A stretch of 64,000 nucleotides of DNA from contig JAOZHT010000005.1 of NCBI GenBank assembly GCA_026014735.1, positions 1 to 64,000 on the forward strand, given 5' to 3'. The translations under genes were made by a program, and so were the position numbers. The notes under the pieces were generated by a model. It was given only the letters and a program-made list of their open reading frames with translations, was not told the origin of the DNA and made no database searches. The DNA is from Candidatus Bathyarchaeota archaeon (GTDB lineage: Archaea; Thermoproteota; Bathyarchaeia; Bathyarchaeales; Bathycorpusculaceae). Below, in pieces: positions 36,899 through 58,669 of this stretch; position 1 is the stretch's first letter, and each line of letters begins with the position of its first letter.

Positions 36899-36983
36899 CT
36901 TCTTTCGCTAAACTATTTGGCAGAGTGGGCTTAAATTACTTAGCATAGCTTGCCCTTTAGAGCGCCGCCGAGATGCTCTTTGA

Positions 36984-37076
36984 CATAGAAGAGTTTGTTT
37001 ATTTATGGGGCTTCTACAAGTGGCCGATTGTTGGCGAGTTGCTCAGTACGGATAGAGCATCAGCCTCTAAGTTGCC
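36984..37076 (+). repeat. decayed copy of the tRNA-Arg promoter and 5' half
   Basis: CATAGAAGAGTTTGTTTATT aligns with the promoter of the tRNA-Arg gene (39681-39701). Then GGCGAGTTGCTCAGTACGGA, TAGAGCATCAGCCTCTAAGTTG (37033-37074) aligns with the tRNA itself from the acceptor through the anticodon stem. One C of the anticodon loop is missing and homology stops after AAGTTG. It is a pseudo-tRNA half and looks like one boundary of an integrated segment that ends at the intact tRNA, 2.7 kb away. Confidence 0.75.
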
Positions 37077-37142
37077 CAATTTGACCCAGTACAAAGATTA
37101 CTCTATACAGCATATACTGTAAGAGCTAGGCAGCTGCACCAG

Positions 37143-37439
37143 CTAACAATCCTGCTCAAGCTGTTGTTTACATATATCACAGATGGTTGCATTTGCATTT
37201 TGAATGGAGCCACAATTAGGGCAAATGTTTGGGGTAAATGGTTGCTTTTTGATTGGAATAAACACGGGGACGCTTTTTGCTAGAAACATGATGCCTACAA
37301 CAACAGAGCAAACTCCTCCTGTTAGATATGCAGCTGTTTGATTGCCGCTAAAGTAGATAGATAGGGCAGCAACACCAAATATTTCAATACTGACTCCCGC
37401 TATCAAACCCAACAAGAAGACTTGCCTAAACTCATGCAT
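37143..37439 (-). CDS. membrane protein with C-terminal zinc ribbon
   Basis: 98 residues. Two spans (near 8-31 and 36-58), a short linker VPVFIPIKKQPF, then ICPNCGSIQNANATICDICK, a four-cysteine zinc ribbon expected on the cytoplasmic side. No family function known. It lies inside the segment bounded by the tRNA-Arg 5'-half copies. Confidence 0.72.
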   Translation of the reverse strand: MHEFRQVFLLGLIAGVSIEIFGVAALSIYFSGNQTAAYLTGGVCSVVVGIMFLAKSVPVFIPIKKQPFTPNICPNCGSIQNANATICDICKQQLEQDC

Positions 37440-37770
37440 ATCTAAGTCCCCAATATCAAATCAAACTATACATTAAAAAAACTTGACCATACAGAACTTC
37501 TTCTAATGGTCATTATCTAGCTAAACCTTGAAGTAGTTATAGTCACTACAAGTCGTTATCTTGAATTGTATTCTCAATTGCTTGCTGACTTAAACCTTAG
37601 AGTTATTACTTCCGATAAACTTACTGAGATACTGGGCGGAAAATTGGGTTTCCCCCTTTCTCGATCTTCAGTGTATCATTGAATATATTCGTAGGTTTCT
37701 TTGAGTATTTTCGGTCAAAAAACCTACAAATAAGCTTTTTACTCTCCAAACAATTAAGTTTAAGACGCAG
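37440..37770. other. intergenic region with a long-loop hairpin
   Basis: Promoter region for the downstream propeller gene. GTAGGTTT (37691-37698) and AAACCTAC (37720-37727) form a perfect 8-bp stem around a 21-base loop, ~45 bases before the start codon. No coding sequence seen. Confidence 0.4.
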
Positions 37771-39546
37771 ATGAGTGCAATGAAGAAAACGATGTTCAGA
37801 GTGATGTTTGCTTCAGCGTTCCTTCTTTTGGTGGCAATTGGAACCTTACCTGATGTAGATTTTGGGGTGGCGGACGCCGTGGCTGATGATGAGTGGAAAA
37901 TGCTTCAGCATGACGTAACTCATTCGGGGTATTCCTCTTCAAATGCGCCATACACGAACGTTACTCTATGGAACTACACAACTCACAGTTCTTATTCAAG
38001 TCCAGTTTTAGCTAATGGCTGTGTCTTCATTGCCTCGATAAATGGATACATCTATTGCCTAAACGCATTAACGGGAACTCTGGTCTGGAGCGTTTATATG
38101 AATAAAACAAATATCATGCAAGCTGTAGTTCCCACTGTTGTGGACGGCAAGTTGTACATAGGGGCAGGCGAAAGTGTTTACTGCTTAAATGCCTCTCAAG
38201 GTTCCCAAATATGGAAATATACTACGGGTGCAGGCATAACTCAGTCATCTCCAGCGGTTATCAGCGGCAGAGTATACATAGGATCAATCGATAAGAACAT
38301 GTATTGCTTGGATGCAGTCACAGGAAGTCTGATATGGAACTTTACAACAGGCAGCTTCGTTATAGCTTCCCCCATTGTAGCAAATGATATAGTTTACTTT
38401 GGATCCCATGACTATAACTTTTATGCGTTAAACGCAAGTAGCGGTGAAATGATATGGATTCGCAATGCCGGTTTCATCGTTGACAGCTCACCGACTTTTT
38501 CAGAAGGAAAAATTTACTTCGGAACAAAAGATGGCAGTTTCATCTGCTTAGATGCTTCTAAGGGCACCTTCGTATGGATCCATGTCGCCGGCAGCAGTAT
38601 CACAGGGGCGCCGGCAGTGGTAGACGGTAAGGTTTACTTTGGCTCCTGGGACCACAAACTATACTGTTTGGATGCAAAAACTGGCGAGGCGATCTGGACC
38701 TATACCACGGGGGACACGATTGCGGGGGCTTCGCCTGCGGTTGCTAATGGTAAAGTCTACATTGGATCATACGACCACAAAATATACTGTTTGAATGCTA
38801 ATGAAGGCTGGGTGATTTGGAGTTACGATACACAAACGTATGTTGGCACATCGCCTGCTATTGCCAACGGAATTGTCTACGCCAATTCGTTTGATGTGCT
38901 CTATGCTTTTGTTGGTTCCCCTGGTTCCCCTGAACCAACGCCTAAAACAAACCCAACAACCGCGGCTACGAATTCTCCGTCACAAGAAAATACTCCAAAA
39001 CAAACACCGACTCCAAAGCCGCAGTCGCAGCCATCCACAATACAAGTGGCCACAAACACTGGAGCTTTGCTTAACTTCACAATTAAAGGAAACATAACAG
39101 GTTCACAGATTTCAAGTGCTGTTATAACCACAAATCAATCTGCCAAAACCACCCAGTTGTCGTTTAACTTGACTGGTCAGAGTGGAACCATAGGGTTTAG
39201 CAATATCACAATTCCAAAAAATGCTGCCTCTTACGGAAACTCACTTGCCGTTTTTATCGATGGGCAACCAGCTGAACAGCAGGGCTACGCGCAAGACGCT
39301 GTTAACTACTACGTTTGGTACACGACGCACTTCAGTAGCCACCAATTATCTATAATCTTCTCAACGGATTCTGCGAATACAACTGTGTCGCCTGAGGTAC
39401 CGTGGGCGCAGGGATTCAGTTTAACGCAGATAATCGGTGGGGCAGCGGTTGGCATAGTTATTGTGGGCATCATTACTGCTTTGTTAGTGGTTGTAATCCG
39501 AAGGGGCGAAAAGACTCAAACAAAAAGAACCGATAAAGAAGAATAA
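37771..39546 (+). CDS. secreted PQQ-type beta-propeller protein with membrane anchor
   Basis: 591 residues. N-terminal signal sequence (MFRVMFASAFLLLVAIG), then DEWKMLQHDVTHSGYSSSNA and about eight blades of the type SPAVANGKVYIGSYDHKIYCLNA. A Pro/Thr/Gln stalk (PTPKTNPTTAATNSPSQENT) leads to a beta domain with NFTIKGNITGSQISS and an FIDGQ strand, then one span (GIVIVGIITALLVVVI) and a basic cytoplasmic end. The propeller is related to that of the GT39 fusions at 19.7-24.5 kb but without the glycosyltransferase. It may bind surface glycan or protein. Base composition is more AT-rich than in the fusions. Confidence 0.85.
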   Translation: MSAMKKTMFRVMFASAFLLLVAIGTLPDVDFGVADAVADDEWKMLQHDVTHSGYSSSNAPYTNVTLWNYTTHSSYSSPVLANGCVFIASINGYIYCLNALTGTLVWSVYMNKTNIMQAVVPTVVDGKLYIGAGESVYCLNASQGSQIWKYTTGAGITQSSPAVISGRVYIGSIDKNMYCLDAVTGSLIWNFTTGSFVIASPIVANDIVYFGSHDYNFYALNASSGEMIWIRNAGFIVDSSPTFSEGKIYFGTKDGSFICLDASKGTFVWIHVAGSSITGAPAVVDGKVYFGSWDHKLYCLDAKTGEAIWTYTTGDTIAGASPAVANGKVYIGSYDHKIYCLNANEGWVIWSYDTQTYVGTSPAIANGIVYANSFDVLYAFVGSPGSPEPTPKTNPTTAATNSPSQENTPKQTPTPKPQSQPSTIQVATNTGALLNFTIKGNITGSQISSAVITTNQSAKTTQLSFNLTGQSGTIGFSNITIPKNAASYGNSLAVFIDGQPAEQQGYAQDAVNYYVWYTTHFSSHQLSIIFSTDSANTTVSPEVPWAQGFSLTQIIGGAAVGIVIVGIITALLVVVIRRGEKTQTKRTDKEE

Positions 39547-39730
39547 TCGCAAAATTGAGCTATAAACAGCTGTTACGAATACGGGACTATTCCAACAAAA
39601 CCTAACGTTATTGCTCCCTTGAACGCTCTTTTCCTCAGCCAGGGGCGCCGGAGCGTTTATCGCAGAGGGCTTTTTGTTTGTCATAGAAGGGTTTGTATAT
39701 TTAAGTGGCTTTATCAGTTGCATTCGGCGT

Positions 39731-39808
39731 GGGCGAGTAGCTCAGTACGGATAGAGCACCAGCCTCCTAAGTTGGGGGTCGAGGGTTCAAATCCCTCCCC
39801 GCCCGCCA
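39731..39808 (+). tRNA. tRNA-Arg (anticodon CCU)
   Basis: Folds as a full cloverleaf: acceptor GGGCGAG/CCCGCCC, D-stem GCTC/GAGC, anticodon stem CCAGC/GTTGG around CTCCTAA (anticodon CCT in DNA), T-stem GAGGG/CCCTC with loop TTCAAAT, discriminator G and encoded CCA. One defect: A6 faces C67 in the acceptor stem. A TATA-like GTATATTTAAG lies ~35 bases upstream. The 3' half from AGTTGGGGG recurs three times downstream and the 5' half once upstream, marking the gene as an integration target. Confidence 0.93.
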
Positions 39809-39869
39809 CCCTTTACGGTAACAAAACTTTAGTAATAGTTTCTCATGAGGTAATCCAGAGGTCATAACT

Positions 39870-40085
39870 GTGAAGTTTGGAGTAGTTGTGGAAAAAGACG
39901 AATACGGCTATTATGTTGCTTCTGTTCCCGAGTTACCGGGTTGCCATACACAAGCTAAAACGCTTGATGAAGTTATGAAGCGCATCAAGGAAGCAATCGA
40001 AGCCTGTTTAATGGCTGAAGGCGCCCAAAGACGTAGCCGCACCGAGTTGGTCGGTGTTCAATTCGTTGAGGTTTCAGCTGAATGA
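39870..40085 (+). CDS. hicB: HicB-like antitoxin
   Basis: 71 residues from GTG 39870. The partial RNase-H-like HicB fold is clear: FGVVVEKDEYGYYVASVPELPGCHTQAKTLDEV. It neutralises the HicA ribonuclease. It overlaps hicA by four bases (ATGA), indicating coupled translation. Antitoxin precedes toxin here. The pair alone fills the 0.5-kb segment between the tRNA-Arg gene and its first 3'-half copy. Confidence 0.92.
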   Translation: MKFGVVVEKDEYGYYVASVPELPGCHTQAKTLDEVMKRIKEAIEACLMAEGAQRRSRTELVGVQFVEVSAE

Positions 40086-40306
40086 GTTTGAAGCCCCAAC
40101 CAGCAACAAAAATCATCAAAGCGCTTTCTAAAATAGGTTTTAGAATCGTGAGGCAGCATGGCAGCCATGTTGTTCTCAAAAATGCAGACGGACAAGTTAC
40201 CGTTGTTCCAGTGCATCCAGGCGAAGATATAGGCCCAGGGTTGCTAACAAAAATCATCAAAGATACGGGTCTTTCAAAAGAAGAATTCCTAGAATTACTC
40301 AAATAG
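40082..40306 (+). CDS. hicA: HicA mRNA-interferase toxin
   Basis: 74 residues. The dsRBD-like HicA fold with the catalytic histidine at RQHGSHVVLKN (His29) and GEDIGPGLLTKIIKDTGLS at the C-terminal half. It cleaves mRNA ribosome-independently when HicB is lost. Stop codon lies 14 bases before the tRNA-Arg 3'-half copy. Confidence 0.93.
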   Translation: MSLKPQPATKIIKALSKIGFRIVRQHGSHVVLKNADGQVTVVPVHPGEDIGPGLLTKIIKDTGLSKEEFLELLK

Positions 40307-40317
40307 CCAGTCGCCAG

Positions 40318-40359
40318 AGTTGGGGGTCGAGGGTTCAAATCCCTCCCCGCCCGCCACCC
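40318..40359 (+). repeat. tRNA-Arg 3'-half copy 1 (attachment-site-like)
   Basis: 42 bases identical to 39770-39811: from AGTTGGGGGTC in the anticodon stem through the T-arm and acceptor to CCACCC. Identity extends only three bases past CCA. No 5' half is present, so it is not a tRNA gene. Confidence 0.88.
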
Positions 40360-40508: not shown

Positions 40509-41945
40509 TTGGCTAACCAAGAAAAAACTAATATTACAACATATCAGCCTGGGCAAATACAAAAAAACGTTGATGAATTTACAAGCGAGTTAACGACTTA
40601 TCTCAATACCTTGGGCTTGCCATCTACAAATGTCTTGGTAGCAATACCGGAAAGGAAAAATGTCATTAATAACTTACCGTCGGTTGTTGAACGTCTCGAT
40701 CCTTTAGCTAGGAGTAGTTCAGTCTACATATCGAAATTTACGGCAGCATGTGCAGTCGGACTATTTGATGCAGCACTAAATTTTCTATGGGATGAAACAA
40801 TCGCAAGCCTTCGTGAAAAGGCTTCACGATTTGATCTAGAGTTCTTCTTTAGTAGTGTTGTGACAGATCAAAATCGGCGCTCAAAGCTACATACCGCTGA
40901 AGATCTTGAGAAACTTGAAGATTGGGAACTAGTCAGAGGTTGCCAATTAACCGGAATACTCTCGGACATTGGGTTTAAACATCTTGATTATATAAGAGAT
41001 GTAAGAAATTGGGCTAGTGCGGCTCATCCCAATCAGAATCAATTGACTGGCCTGCAAGTTGTTACTTGGCTAGAGACTTGTATTAAAGAAGTAATTGGTA
41101 AAGAACCCTCGGGACCAGCTATACAAATACGGCTCCTTCTTGAAAATATTAGAACAAAAGTTTTAAGTTCTCCAGATGTAAAAGCAACAATCGCAAATGT
41201 TCAAAATCTTTCCATAGAAATGGCTTCATCGCTCCTGCGAACAATTTTCGGAATGTACACTGATCCGGCAATGACGGCATCCGCCAAGAATAACATTAAA
41301 CTTATTGCCAAAGCGGTATGGGACGTATCACCAGATGAACGGAGATACGAAGTAGGATTAAAATTTGCAACATTTGATGCAAACGCCGATATTACGCGCC
41401 GCGACGCAGCAAGGGAGTTCCTAGAAATCTCAGAAGGTATGTCCTACCTTCCTACAGAAACCCTTGCAAGGGAATTGCAGGAAAAGGTACAGAATTTGCT
41501 CACCGCACACTACGGAATGAATAACTTCTACAATGAAACATCGCATGCAAAAATGCTAGCCGAACAAGTTCCAAAGACTGGAAAAATCCCTAAATCTATA
41601 AGGGCTGAATATGTTAAGACTCTGATATTGTGTCGCATTGGAAACTTCTATGGATTATCATGGGCTGCAAGCGATTACTATGACGAGTTAATCTCTCGCT
41701 TTCAAGAAGTCGAGATCCAACAAGTTGCGCGTTTATTACTGGATAAGGAAGTATTTTCGCGTATGCAGAATACTGCTTGCGCCTCTCGATTCTTAGCAAT
41801 CTGTGCCAACTTGAGAAAACGCGCAACAAACACTCATACCACGAGCGTTTTAGATAGGATTCTCAAGATGCGCTCAGATGAACTATCAGCCGCTGATATT
41901 ACCAAAGACTTTACCCCCTTGTTATCTTCACTGACACTCAGTTAA
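40509..41945 (+). CDS. HEPN-like protein, putative abortive-infection or toxin function
   Basis: 478 residues, mostly helical, no membrane span. Near residue 160 the stretch HLDYIRDVRNWASAAHPNQN contains Arg166-Asn167 and His173, the R-N-x(5)-H arrangement of HEPN ribonuclease domains. The flanking helices (WELVRGCQLTGILSDIGFKH, TWLETCIKEVIG) fit a HEPN bundle. The remaining ~290 residues are a helical-repeat-like region without a recognised family. TTG start at 40509. It is the only gene between two tRNA-Arg 3'-half copies, typical of defence cargo. Assignment is motif-level only. Confidence 0.55.
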   Translation: MANQEKTNITTYQPGQIQKNVDEFTSELTTYLNTLGLPSTNVLVAIPERKNVINNLPSVVERLDPLARSSSVYISKFTAACAVGLFDAALNFLWDETIASLREKASRFDLEFFFSSVVTDQNRRSKLHTAEDLEKLEDWELVRGCQLTGILSDIGFKHLDYIRDVRNWASAAHPNQNQLTGLQVVTWLETCIKEVIGKEPSGPAIQIRLLLENIRTKVLSSPDVKATIANVQNLSIEMASSLLRTIFGMYTDPAMTASAKNNIKLIAKAVWDVSPDERRYEVGLKFATFDANADITRRDAAREFLEISEGMSYLPTETLARELQEKVQNLLTAHYGMNNFYNETSHAKMLAEQVPKTGKIPKSIRAEYVKTLILCRIGNFYGLSWAASDYYDELISRFQEVEIQQVARLLLDKEVFSRMQNTACASRFLAICANLRKRATNTHTTSVLDRILKMRSDELSAADITKDFTPLLSSLTLS

Positions 41946-42056: not shown

Positions 42057-42090
42057 GAGCAGGGGTTCAAATCTCTCCCCGCCCGCCACT
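42057..42090 (+). repeat. tRNA-Arg 3'-half copy 2
   Basis: GAGCAGGGGTTCAAATCTCT then CCCCGCCCGCCAC: T-arm and acceptor of tRNA-Arg with two substitutions. The anticodon side is lost. Confidence 0.75.
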
Positions 42091-42105: not shown

Positions 42106-43503
42106 TTAAGCTATGATTTGTTTCTGCTTTAAAGGAATCCTAACTTCAAAGGTGGTTCCCTTCCCCTTCTGGCTCGTATAGGTTATTGTTCCACCTAACG
42201 CTTCAACGAGTCGTTTAACAACCGCTAAGCCTAACCCTTGACCCTTAGACTTGGTTGTCACCATCGGAGTAAACAGCTTGGGCTTGATTTCCTCAGGAAT
42301 ACCCAAACCGGTGTCCCCCACGTAAACCTCTACGTTTCCGTCTTTCTCCAGAGCCCGAACCGTTAAGATTCCCCCGTTAGGCATCGCTTGAATCCCGTTA
42401 AGAACCAGGTTAGTGAGTACTCGCCTAAAAAACTCAGGGTCCACTTCCACCGGTTCATGGATATCGACGTCTGTTTGTATTTCTATGTTTTTAGGAAACT
42501 TTATTCCACCGATGGTTTTGAAAACCTGTTCCCGAAAATCCACTTGGACACAACTGGGGTTGAGGGGGCGAGCAAAATCCTGCAGGTCAGCAACGATTTT
42601 GTTAATATACGAAATGTTGTCTTCGATGCCCTGGATGCTTTCCTGCAATTCCTCTTTTACGCTGCTTTGGGGCATCTCATCTAAACCGGTCCTAAGAAGG
42701 TAGATATCGCCCTCTATTGCTTGCAGGGGATTACGGATGTCATGGCCAATCATTCCCGCGGTCATGCCTATGGCGCTAAGCCTCTCGGAATTCTTAAGCT
42801 GCAAGGTTTTTTCCTCCACAACCCTCTCCAGTTCTTTTGAATGTTTTTCAACCTTAACTTTCATCTCTGATAGGTTAGCCATATTCTTGAAGTCTCTTCT
42901 GCGAAAGAGCTGCAGATTATACGAGCAAATCACAGTAACAAAAAAGGCAGTTACCAAACTGAACACGACGGTAAATAAGCCATAATCCCAAGGCAACCCT
43001 GAAGAAACCACAATTATCTCGCCTGCACAGGCAGTTGCCGACAGAATAATTTGGCTGACAAGCTTGGTTGGTATGTAAAGCCCCACAAGCAGAATCACCG
43101 CTGCAGTAATCACGGAATGGGTAAGGAAACTCTGGGGGCGAGTGGCATTAAACGTCAACATAGCAATGATTAAAGCAAAAGCCAAAACGAACAGCACTTT
43201 ATCGTAGACTTGGTAACTGTTCACTTTAGCCAGGTACACCGCTACGGATATGGCTACTGCAGACAATGCAACCCTTATTGCTAGCGAGAAGAAGAAAACT
43301 TGAGACAACCCCAGAATTTGGTAATCGTTGAAGGCAAAAGCAATCCACGCTGCAACTGCAATGATCAACCCATACCTTGCGAGTTTGATGTCTTCCTTAG
43401 CATACCAGGTTCGGTACTGTCTTTCCTCTAAGTAATTTAACCCAAACAACGGTTTATTAAACAAAGATGACCCTGAGTTGACTGCTAACCTTTTTTGGTT
43501 CAC
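42106..43503 (-). CDS. membrane sensor histidine kinase
   Basis: 465 residues. Five or six spans between residues 43 and 193 form an integral membrane sensor without a large external loop. A coiled coil (EKHSKELERVVEEKTLQLKN) leads to HisKA with His254 in GMIGHDIRNPLQAI, then the ATPase with N-box LTNLVLNGIQAM, G1 VGDTGLGIPEE and G2 KGQGLGLAVVK. It autophosphorylates and passes phosphate to a response regulator; no regulator gene is near. It occupies the segment between 3'-half copies 2 and 3. Confidence 0.92.
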   Translation of the reverse strand: MNQKRLAVNSGSSLFNKPLFGLNYLEERQYRTWYAKEDIKLARYGLIIAVAAWIAFAFNDYQILGLSQVFFFSLAIRVALSAVAISVAVYLAKVNSYQVYDKVLFVLAFALIIAMLTFNATRPQSFLTHSVITAAVILLVGLYIPTKLVSQIILSATACAGEIIVVSSGLPWDYGLFTVVFSLVTAFFVTVICSYNLQLFRRRDFKNMANLSEMKVKVEKHSKELERVVEEKTLQLKNSERLSAIGMTAGMIGHDIRNPLQAIEGDIYLLRTGLDEMPQSSVKEELQESIQGIEDNISYINKIVADLQDFARPLNPSCVQVDFREQVFKTIGGIKFPKNIEIQTDVDIHEPVEVDPEFFRRVLTNLVLNGIQAMPNGGILTVRALEKDGNVEVYVGDTGLGIPEEIKPKLFTPMVTTKSKGQGLGLAVVKRLVEALGGTITYTSQKGKGTTFEVRIPLKQKQIIA

Positions 43504-43585
43504 TAACTATTTAAGGTTTTAAGTATAACAGCTGCCTTGAAACACATGTGAAGGATAACTGAGGGCGGAACATACATCATATCCT

Positions 43586-43626
43586 CAGTTAGGGGTCAAG
43601 ACTCCAAATCCCCGTCCACCCGCCAA
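43586..43626 (+). repeat. tRNA-Arg 3'-half copy 3, strongly decayed
   Basis: AGTTAGGGGTCAAGACTCCA then AATCCCCGTCCACCCGCCAA aligns with the tRNA-Arg 3' half from the anticodon stem to CCA with about eight changes, disrupting the T-arm. Confidence 0.6.
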
Positions 43627-43645: not shown

Positions 43646-44101
43646 TTAAAGCCTCATTCTTTTGGATGCCTCTTTAGGTATGGGGTTTTCGATGATTAAC
43701 CCCCGTTCTCTGCATAATCTAGCTATGTGTGCGTCGTTACTTACAACCACAGAGATATTGTTTGTTTCCGCAGACGCTATTAGGGTTGCATCAAATGACC
43801 GGACCTTGTGGAGTTTAGCTATTTCAAGGGCTTTTCGGGCAGTATCGACTGTCAGAGGTAGAAAACGTATTTTGGTGCTTCTGGTTAACCCGTCAAGTTT
43901 GTATTGGGCTTCTTCTCTTTCCACACCATAATCCTCCACCAATGCATGATATGCTTCCATCAGGTTGGCAGCGGTGACTGCGGCGCTTAATTTTCCATGA
44001 ACTGCATCCTGGAGCAGCGGCCAGCAGTATGGGTGAGCGTCATGTTTCTGGAAGAGCGCATAGGAAAGGATGTCTGCGTCGATTAGCCTCATCTTTTCCA
44101 A
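43646..44101 (-). CDS. vapC: VapC-type PIN-domain toxin
   Basis: 151 residues. PIN signatures: RLIDADILSYAL with the first acidic site, AANLMEAYHAL with Glu, and VRSFDATLIASAETN with the C-terminal Asp. Likely a Mg-dependent endoribonuclease targeting tRNA or rRNA. It overlaps the AbrB-type antitoxin gene by 13 bases. It lies just outside the last tRNA-Arg 3'-half copy. Confidence 0.88.
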   Translation of the reverse strand: MEKMRLIDADILSYALFQKHDAHPYCWPLLQDAVHGKLSAAVTAANLMEAYHALVEDYGVEREEAQYKLDGLTRSTKIRFLPLTVDTARKALEIAKLHKVRSFDATLIASAETNNISVVVSNDAHIARLCRERGLIIENPIPKEASKRMRL

Positions 44102-44337
44102 GCCTTTTCCCGCGAGAAAACCTTATCACGCGCCTCTGATTTGCCTGTTTTGCAGGGTTCTCTTAGGGAGCGGGTTGCTAAATCGTCCTCTTCAACCAAT
44201 GGAATCAGCTCGATGGAATCCTCTTTCGCAACTAATTCTAGGCGGCCGTCATCTGACAGGCCGTATTTCTCCCTGATTTCTTTAGGGATGACTATGCGTC
44301 CTTGCTTGTCAATCGCTACTTCCAATGGCATCACCAT
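44089..44337 (-). CDS. vapB: AbrB/SpoVT-type antitoxin (VapB)
   Basis: 82 residues. N-terminal swapped-hairpin DNA-binding motif EVAIDKQGRIVIPKEIREKY, then GDxLEL-like GRLELVAKEDSIELIP. The charged C-terminal tail (SEARDKVFSREKAWKR) should wrap the PIN toxin. First gene of the pair; probably autorepressing. Confidence 0.88.
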   Translation of the reverse strand: MVMPLEVAIDKQGRIVIPKEIREKYGLSDDGRLELVAKEDSIELIPLVEEDDLATRSLREPCKTGKSEARDKVFSREKAWKR

Positions 44338-44437
44338 TTACCATTGCCACAGATTCGCTTAATAATCTTTCTCGCAAATGTCTAAATTCGGAGCCTCTTA
44401 AGCCAGCTTGCAGCCCTAAAAACTCTCCCTCGCCAAC

Positions 44438-53895: not shown

Positions 53896-54018
53896 GGCGG
53901 GGTATCCGAGCCAGGTCTAAATAGGGCCAGATCAACCTATTTGCCCCTAAGATATGGAGGAGGACTTAAGATCCTCTGGCGCAGGCCTTCGTGGGTTCAA
54001 GTCCCACCCCCGCCACCA
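53896..54018 (+). tRNA. tRNA-Leu (anticodon UAA) with insertion in the D-loop
   Basis: Acceptor GGCGGGG/CCCCGCC, anticodon stem GAGGA/TCCTC around CTTAAGA (anticodon TAA in DNA), a long variable arm (GGCGCAGGCCTTC region) typical of Leu, T-stem GTGGG/CCCAC, discriminator A and encoded CCA. The D-stem is TCC/GGA. Between GGTC (53914-53917) and GGA (53956-53958) lie 38 bases where three or four are usual. This insert contains AAATAGG/CCTATTT (7 bp) and is probably a non-canonical intron. Confidence 0.85.
53918..53955 (+). other. probable D-loop intron of tRNA-Leu
   Basis: The insert holds a stem AAATAGG (53919-53925) with CCTATTT (53936-53942) and a 10-base loop. Its flanks pair loosely (AGG with CCT) leaving three-base bulges, a relaxed version of the bulge-helix-bulge substrate of the archaeal splicing endonuclease. 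Exact cut sites cannot be fixed from sequence alone. Confidence 0.5.
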
Positions 54019-58358: not shown

Positions 58359-58420
58359 TGGTATCAGTATAATTATTTTACTTTCTTACATTTAGTGTTT
58401 GTGGCTAGCCTTACGGCTTC

Positions 58421-58474
58421 TCTGGAGCAGGCCTTCGTGGGCTAGGTCCCACCCCCGCCACCACTACTCAACCC
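58421..58474 (+). repeat. tRNA-Leu 3'-end copy 1 (attachment-site-like)
   Basis: Aligns with 53975-54028. CAGGCCTTCGTGGG and TCCCACCCCCGCCACCACTA then CTCAACCC are identical, and the match continues 13 bases past CCA. The T-loop TTCAAG is changed to CTAGG and one base is lost. It closes a 4.4-kb segment that opens at the tRNA gene. Confidence 0.88.
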
Positions 58475-58480
58475 CCGTTA

Positions 58481-58669
58481 GTGAATCGAACAGTATCTTT
58501 TGCAGTTTGGCTACTGAACAAAAAAGCGAATAGAGGAAGCACCATAGAGCGAAAGATGCGTTATCTCAAGCAACTTAGGGGTTCACCTCAAGAGATGGCT
58601 AATCAAGTTTTGTCAAAAGCATAGAAAGATGGTACTAAGGAGAATGCTTTGGATGGCGCTGAGCAATAA
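58481..58669 (+). pseudogene. tyrosine integrase N-terminal remnant
   Basis: From GTG 58481 the frame reads NRTVSFAVWLLNKKANRGST, IERKMRYLKQLRGSPQEMAN, QVLSKA, then a TAG at 58622-58624, then KDGTKENALDGAEQ and TAA. The core-binding-domain pattern (FAVWLL..., STIERKMRYLKQL, VLSKA-W-KDGTKENALD) matches archaeal tyrosine recombinases, with TAG standing where Trp (TGG) is expected. The catalytic half is missing. It starts seven bases after the tRNA-Leu 3'-end copy, the place expected for an integrase beside its att site. Confidence 0.7.

Follow-up and report, generated by a model that had tools for sequence, protein, structure and literature searches.

The anticodon arm of tRNA-Arg(CCT) in Bathycorpusculum as a probable attachment site for mobile elements on both sides

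The tRNA-Arg(CCT) locus and its displaced 5' pieces

The window analysed here is a stretch of 64,000 nucleotides from Candidatus Bathyarchaeota archaeon (assembly GCA_026014735.1, contig JAOZHT010000005.1, positions 1 to 64,000). Its genome, which belongs to the genus Bathycorpusculum of the Bathyarchaeia, is called G000, and the other G numbers designate relatives. The window contains a working tRNA-Arg(CCT) gene that is preceded by displaced promoters and 5' halves of the gene and followed by displaced 3' pieces. Two kinds of tyrosine-integrase element probably use the anticodon arm of this gene as a chromosomal attachment site, one from each side, the 5' side being served by an SSV-type integrase. 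The features that carry the 5' side of this interpretation are the following.

39731-39808, forward strand: functional, intron-free tRNA-Arg(CCT) with the putative crossover in its anticodon arm (ARAGORN, Rfam)
39674-39730, forward strand: present promoter, "type A", the antisense of which reads LNIQTLL (profile, alignment)
36975-37074, forward strand: outer displaced copy of the tRNA-Arg(CCT) promoter and 5' half, which breaks off in the anticodon arm (alignment, blastn, profile)
37578-37648, forward strand: second displaced 5' piece, an old "type B" promoter as found in the relatives G022, G005 and others (profile, alignment)
37649-37690, forward strand: decayed 5' half with remains of a position-9 intron (TTTCTCGATCTTCAGT) (alignment to the outer copy of G014; weak alone)

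The outer 5' copy spans the promoter and tRNA positions 1 to about 43, with an identity of about 81% to the working gene. In a local alignment, 36960-37074 pairs with 39651-39774 at a score of 118, against at most 36 for the window tiles outside the two copies that served as a chance control. The copy was also recovered by a profile (36975-37067, E 9e-24) and by blastn (36979-37074, E 3e-15). One anticodon base is missing (CCT-CTAAGTTG), and past CTAAGTTG no similarity to the working gene was found by alignment. These results bear out the first-pass annotation, which had described the upstream copy as a promoter and 5' half ending at the anticodon arm. In its CATCAGCC form the outer copy is similar to the tRNA-Arg(TCT) of relatives, and it is possible that the copy derives from this gene instead of tRNA-Arg(CCT).

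A search with a tRNA-Arg promoter profile built only from relatives revealed the second and older promoter of tRNA-Arg(CCT) at 37578-37648 (E 5.5e-10). The remains in the decayed 5' half that follows it match the position-9 intron of some relatives. The DNA between the outer copy and the working gene had been taken for one 2.7-kb segment (37077-39680). It is indeed absent in six relatives, but the second promoter makes it composite. With two displaced 5' pieces it therefore consists of two segments, one with a zinc-ribbon protein and one with a PQQ beta-propeller protein, and the upstream part of the window would record at least two insertions. The two proteins are encoded as follows, each in one open reading frame (ORF).

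37143-37439, reverse strand: 98-amino-acid membrane protein, zinc ribbon at its C-terminus, located between both displaced 5' pieces (ORF; weak Pfam match to DZR)
37771-39546, forward strand: 591-amino-acid exported beta-propeller protein of the PQQ type, carried as cargo on the inner 5'-side segment (ORF; PF13360, 4e-55)

No PF00589 integrase was found on the contig of the window, and three are present in the whole genome. As the window holds no integrase gene, its mechanism can only be inferred, and the evidence for it comes from relatives.

Displaced 5' pieces, promoter and intron exchange in relatives

When the tRNA-Arg(CCT) locus was compared in 32 genomes, displaced 5' pieces were found upstream of the gene in five. 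G000 and G009 have two each, G014 has one, G003 has one on a separate contig beside DUF1801, and G024 retains the promoter only, 40 bp of it directly after the DUF1801 stop. All these pieces lie in the orientation of the tRNA. Wherever the 5' half is readable (five copies in four genomes), it ends abruptly inside the anticodon arm, beside preserved 5' sequence. None of the upstream copies stands as an independent tRNA gene in the relatives. DUF1801 is found close upstream of the tRNA, and the 2.7-kb segment is missing, in G022, G004, G012, G001, G013 and G024. DUF1801 appears to be the ancestral left neighbour of the tRNA, itself beside LarC and cbiMQO where contigs extend. A proteasome alpha-subunit-like gene (L055:3039-3863) was also observed in G024, between the promoter remnant and the tRNA.

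The most informative relative is G014. Its displaced half carries a promoter and a position-9 intron like those of the undisturbed tRNA of G022 (80% identity over 111 bp) and of G005 (83%). The working half, located 0.8 kb away, is intron-free, has another promoter and is only 57% identical to the displaced one. The two halves differ in promoter and intron and are therefore not duplicates of each other. G014, G013 and G022 cluster on a LarC tree (support 89/85). On this comparison, G014 shows that one tRNA gene could change its promoter and lose its intron in a single step. How archaeal tRNA introns are gained and lost, and what part mobile elements play in this, is an open question, on which Randau and Soll, and Sugahara and colleagues, have made proposals. 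If the proposal is true, intron loss or gain can follow directly from the integration of a mobile element. Since both halves of G014 stand in one genome and the undisturbed form is available in G022, it can be tested directly. Across species, tRNA-Arg(CCT) introns were observed at position 9, in the D loop or at the canonical site (L050, L053, L057-L061, L064-L082), and their distribution looks patchy on the LarC tree.

Integrase halves on the 5' side

In three genomes, the displaced 5' half is fused to an N-terminal integrase fragment, int(N). The junction (AAGCCCTAAGGCTGGTGCTCTATCC) was searched as one pattern in 163 genomes of the order and was found only in G009, G014 and G003, with no hit for the reversed control. 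The left arms at the junction vary (type A, type B and a D-loop-intron form) and the right side is the same. For instance, TAGGGCTTAGTAATTTCTTA, which follows CCAGCCT to the right of the break, is common to G014 and the middle copy of G009, whose left arms are of different types. Read in reverse complement, this sequence encodes M..KKLLSPKAG, a stretch that occurs 25 times in 14 genomes (reversed pattern, 0). The sequence TAGGGCTTAGTAATTT was first taken as an element-specific end and then rejected, as it is the reverse complement of the dispersed int(N) coding stretch. The frame in which KKLLSPKAG passes into ALS agrees with the frame of AGALSVLSYSP.

The other part of such an integrase, int(C), would be expected against the working tRNA. 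In G013, the antisense strand leading out of this gene reads EAGALSVLSYSP...IQTLLLHLERKGKSPRTIKSVKKCLIALAKLCNLKD in the same frame as int(N). A profile of five int(C) remnants had recovered no bona fide integrases, and the reverse test was therefore used, in which a core-binding-domain alignment of 18 integrases, the G013 ORF not being among them, was searched against 22,891 six-frame ORFs. An 89-amino-acid antisense ORF of G013 that starts in the anticodon arm matched the integrase core-binding domains with an E of 4.9e-4, and its comparison with the integrases of the genus gave 2.6e-5. In G003, one contig bears DUF1801, the displaced half and int(N), and a second one bears the tRNA together with an int(C)-like remnant. 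The split expected of an SSV-type integrase, whose gene contains the attachment site attP, is thus seen on the 5' side in relatives, with int(N) at the displaced half (G009, G014, G003) and int(C)-like sequence in the same frame at the working tRNA (G013, G003).

The type A promoter (AGAAGGGTTTGTATATTTAAG) is itself the antisense of the IQTLL codons, and the residues LNIQTLL precede the core-binding domain in G013 and its counterparts. Only the IQTLL part remains in G000, G014, G009 (inner copy), G007 and G011, as expected if selection keeps the promoter and the integrase decays. A frame of G024, open across the whole tRNA, was considered as an unsplit integrase and discarded, since IQTLL and the core-binding part are in different frames.

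At another locus, G011:C23, both halves of an integrase of the int(N) family are found together. An N-terminal fragment of this kind and a 408-amino-acid PF00589 integrase, the frame of which begins at the matching sequence, flank a 3.9-kb element there. Such an arrangement is that of an SSV-type integrase. In the KKLLSPKAG family of suicidal integrases, int(C) is read outward from rnpB and copies of int(N) follow downstream (L224:6967-7264 in G011:C23; L230:9512-9813 in G013:C27). The attachment site of the family appears to be the 3' end of the RNase P RNA gene of archaea.

Displaced 3' pieces and integrases on the 3' side

Three displaced 3' pieces follow the tRNA in the window.

40307-40359, forward strand: displaced 3' half of the tRNA, with its break at AGTTGG in the anticodon arm (alignment, blastn)
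42063-42089, forward strand: displaced 3' fragment that starts in the T arm (blastn, alignment)
43582-43625, forward strand: older displaced 3' half, 77% identity (blastn, alignment)

The first is 92% identical to the working gene, with true identity from AGTTGGGGG onward. The second begins at GGGTTCAAATC, a break that differs from the one in the anticodon arm, and the homology of the third begins at TCCTCAGTT. The initial view that all copies break at the same few bases therefore applies to the upstream copy and to 40307, roughly to 43582, and not to 42063.

In two relatives, G022 (L058:6793-8004) and G016 (L066:108-1355), an intact classical integrase gene lies directly against the 3' end of the tRNA. 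C-terminal integrase stubs were found at the same place in G014, G009 and G013, the 3' flanks of which are related to those of G022 and G016. No intact integrase gene lies beside the 3' end of the tRNA in the window. The displaced 5' halves together with the 3' integrase stubs indicate that G014 and G009 were used from both sides, as G000. The relatives thus lend support to the proposal, made from the window alone, that crossover takes place in the anticodon region and that the gene regains its 5' half from some elements and its 3' half from others.

Proposed mechanism and alternative explanations

Classical elements would act on the 3' side, each supplying a new 3' half and displacing the previous one downstream. 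Elements with an SSV-type ("suicidal") integrase would act on the 5' side, where a fresh promoter and 5' half would arrive and the former ones would be moved upstream. The gene of this integrase would run antisense to the tRNA and encode successively the N-terminus (M..KKLLSPKAG), the antisense of the tRNA 5' half (ALSVLSYSP) and the core-binding domain (IQTLL..LERKGKSPRTI..), so that the tRNA promoter would be embedded in the integrase gene, on its opposite strand. On integration the gene would be cut in two, int(N) remaining beside the displaced 5' half and int(C) next to the tRNA that now works. Both parts of the integrase would then decay, and the promoter, which is needed, and the cargo would remain. 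The displaced 5' pieces, their constant break, the shared neighbour, the exchange of promoter and intron, the int(N) fusions and the in-frame int(C)-like remnant are observed. We infer the catalytic reaction, the order of events and the origin of the two 5'-side segments of the window in this way.

The anticodon arm of a single tRNA gene would accordingly be targeted by two types of integrase, one on each side, and the antisense strand of an integrase gene would apparently provide the promoter of the tRNA. It is an even bet whether, more generally, suicidal integrases of Bathycorpusculum carry tRNA promoters and front halves in antisense and, by repeated integration, swap the whole 5' module of tRNA-Arg(CCT), with its promoter, 5' half and any intron therein, between species. 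If true, many present promoters of tRNA-Arg(CCT) are fossil integrase coding sequence.

Several observations weigh against this mechanism. The split into int(N) and int(C) is seen in relatives and not in the window itself, where the displaced copies lack int(N) and the promoter retains only LNIQTLL. The int(C) remnants retain the core-binding domain at most and none has a catalytic domain, nor are they recognised by Pfam. The L.L..KGKS-like remains found at the place of the G013 ORF in G003, G017, G024 and G009 (middle copy) are weak singly and were identified by eye, those of G024 and G009 across a frameshift. None of the genomes and viral contigs searched yielded an intact integrase with the tRNA-Arg 5' half in it. 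Neither the tRNA-Arg halves nor the int(N) junction had an exact copy among the viral contigs, matches in the phage collection did not exceed chance level, and no excised circle was seen. Moreover, the outermost copy of G000 and G009 is better preserved than the middle one, a misfit with simple outward ageing. Finally, the LarC tree is based on one gene only.

An ordinary tRNA island could also restore a 5' half, through a classical integrase that has been lost, and int(N) and int(C) would then be coincidental neighbours. The 5' islands that make up about 4% of Islander islands and the lack of int(N) in the window agree with this. Nevertheless, it is unlikely, given that int(N) lies exactly at the break in three genomes with differing left arms, that its frame runs into the G013 ORF and that the same int(N) is part of a split integrase elsewhere. 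A tandem duplication of the tRNA locus, with decay of the 3' part and no site-specific recombinase, would account for a G000 outer copy without int(N), for a window without integrase genes and for the promoter similarity of the copies, which reaches about 50-70 bp upstream. It would not be expected to end all five readable copies abruptly in the anticodon arm, to place int(N) at the break in three genomes or to give the G014 halves different promoters and introns, and we consider it quite improbable.

In split tRNAs, the halves are separated near position 37 and the promoter is on the 5' half. This anatomy is reproduced here, and trans-spliced halves as in Nanoarchaeum or Caldivirga were therefore also considered. 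On the contrary, the intact tRNA-Arg(CCT) at 39731-39808 is present, the 5' piece is short of one anticodon base and G024 retains promoter sequence only. A split tRNA has no intact gene and its halves are joined in trans, which is not the situation found, and the chance of this explanation is very slight.

Comparison with known systems

The use of one tRNA from both sides had been noted as unusual. This holds, but there are precedents for the 5' side in Islander 5' fragments and pTN3-like integrases. In the Islander collection, 5' fragments are present in 159 of 3919 islands (PMC4383910). These islands, too, have a 5' fragment upstream in tRNA orientation and an anticodon-centred site, and the window likewise has a tRNA with a cognate fragment on the right side and in the right orientation. 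However, Islander islands have an integrase between tRNA and fragment, which is missing here. The present segments (0.6-2.6 kb, integrase-free) would be discarded by the Islander filters, which demand an integrase and at least 2 kb, and, unlike in Islander, one tRNA has both 5' and 3' fragments. As the window has no integrase gene, its segments are remnants or integrase-free passengers and not Islander islands.

The closest known system is the pTN3-like family of Thermococcales (TKV4, pTN3), in which the attachment site attB is the tRNA 5' half, as it is here, and the integrase gene is split by integration. These archaeal integrases were described as unique in using the 5' half (PMC8371274), and integration restores the tRNA but parts it from the promoter it had at first (Cossu 2017, PMC5495485; PMC8371274). 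Their target is tRNA-Leu instead of tRNA-Arg(CCT). The tRNAs of pTN3 reportedly depend on the promoter of the integrase, whereas the promoter found here lies in the antisense strand of int(C), and, unlike in pTN3, a classical integrase makes use of the 3' side of the same tRNA. For the sibling integrase at rnpB, PF00589 matched at 2e-15 and PF16795 (Phage_integr_3), the domain of the pTN3 family, only at E 0.13, below the cut-off, so that no membership is claimed.

In Caldiarchaeum subterraneum, tRNA-Thr(GGU) has a displaced 5' half with upstream sequence, a 1.9-kb insertion and an intron state that is not the same in the displaced and the working gene (Sugahara 2012, PMC3293823). The intron was gained there, at 24/25, and lost in G014. 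The break is at position 27 in Caldiarchaeum; here it is in the anticodon arm with integrase halves at the ends. A thaumarchaeal survey reported one element, in Caldiarchaeum, that uses the 5' region of tRNA-Ser. What is new here, as far as it can be read from sequence, is the putative antisense supply of a promoter, the apparent loss of an intron and the probable use of both sides of one anticodon arm.

Genes downstream of the tRNA

The genes that accompany the displaced 3' pieces of the window are listed below.

39870-40085, forward strand: HicB-like antitoxin (PF15919, 4e-9)
40082-40306, forward strand: HicA toxin (PF07927, 2e-20)
40509-41945, forward strand: 478-amino-acid protein of unknown family, between 3' fragments (ORF, Pfam)
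42106-43503, reverse strand: histidine kinase, between 3' fragments (ORF, Pfam)
43646-44350, reverse strand: PIN-domain toxin (43646-44101) with its upstream partner region (DNA comparison, domain search)

The space from the tRNA to the first 3' fragment at 40307 is filled by the HicBA pair and little else. No relatives of this pair were seen at tRNA-Arg(CCT) within the genus. The VapBC-like cassette (43646-44350) shares 76% DNA identity with a cassette of G003 (L063:535-1239). It adjoins the tRNA-Arg 3' fragments in the window and is bracketed by 3' fragments in G003. One idea is that HicBA and VapBC may be free-moving cassettes devoid of an integrase.

Other tRNAs of the genome

All 46 tRNAs of the genome found with Rfam were surveyed over 6 kb on each side. 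Displaced 3' pieces were found at ten of them: three pieces at tRNA-Arg(CCT), the others at nine further tRNAs (C4:362639, C1:444472, C2:235133, C1:386114 and others), 0.6-6 kb downstream. A significant upstream 5' piece was found only at tRNA-Arg(CCT) (E 5e-11), the next match being at C1:819687 (E 0.009), and the opposite-strand control gave no match at E 1e-3 or better. At C2:648027, a long 3' match upstream of the tRNA resembles a second tRNA copy and not a fragment. Nine further tRNAs with displaced 3' pieces against three PF00589 integrases suggest many small or decayed insertions.

Finally, a probable intron-containing tRNA-Leu(TAA) that was missed by ARAGORN lies at 53896-54018 of the window. 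A displaced 3' copy of this gene was observed 4.4 kb downstream (58410-58501; score 108 versus 30 in shuffles), with a possible integrase remnant ORF after it (58409-58624, E 0.19).
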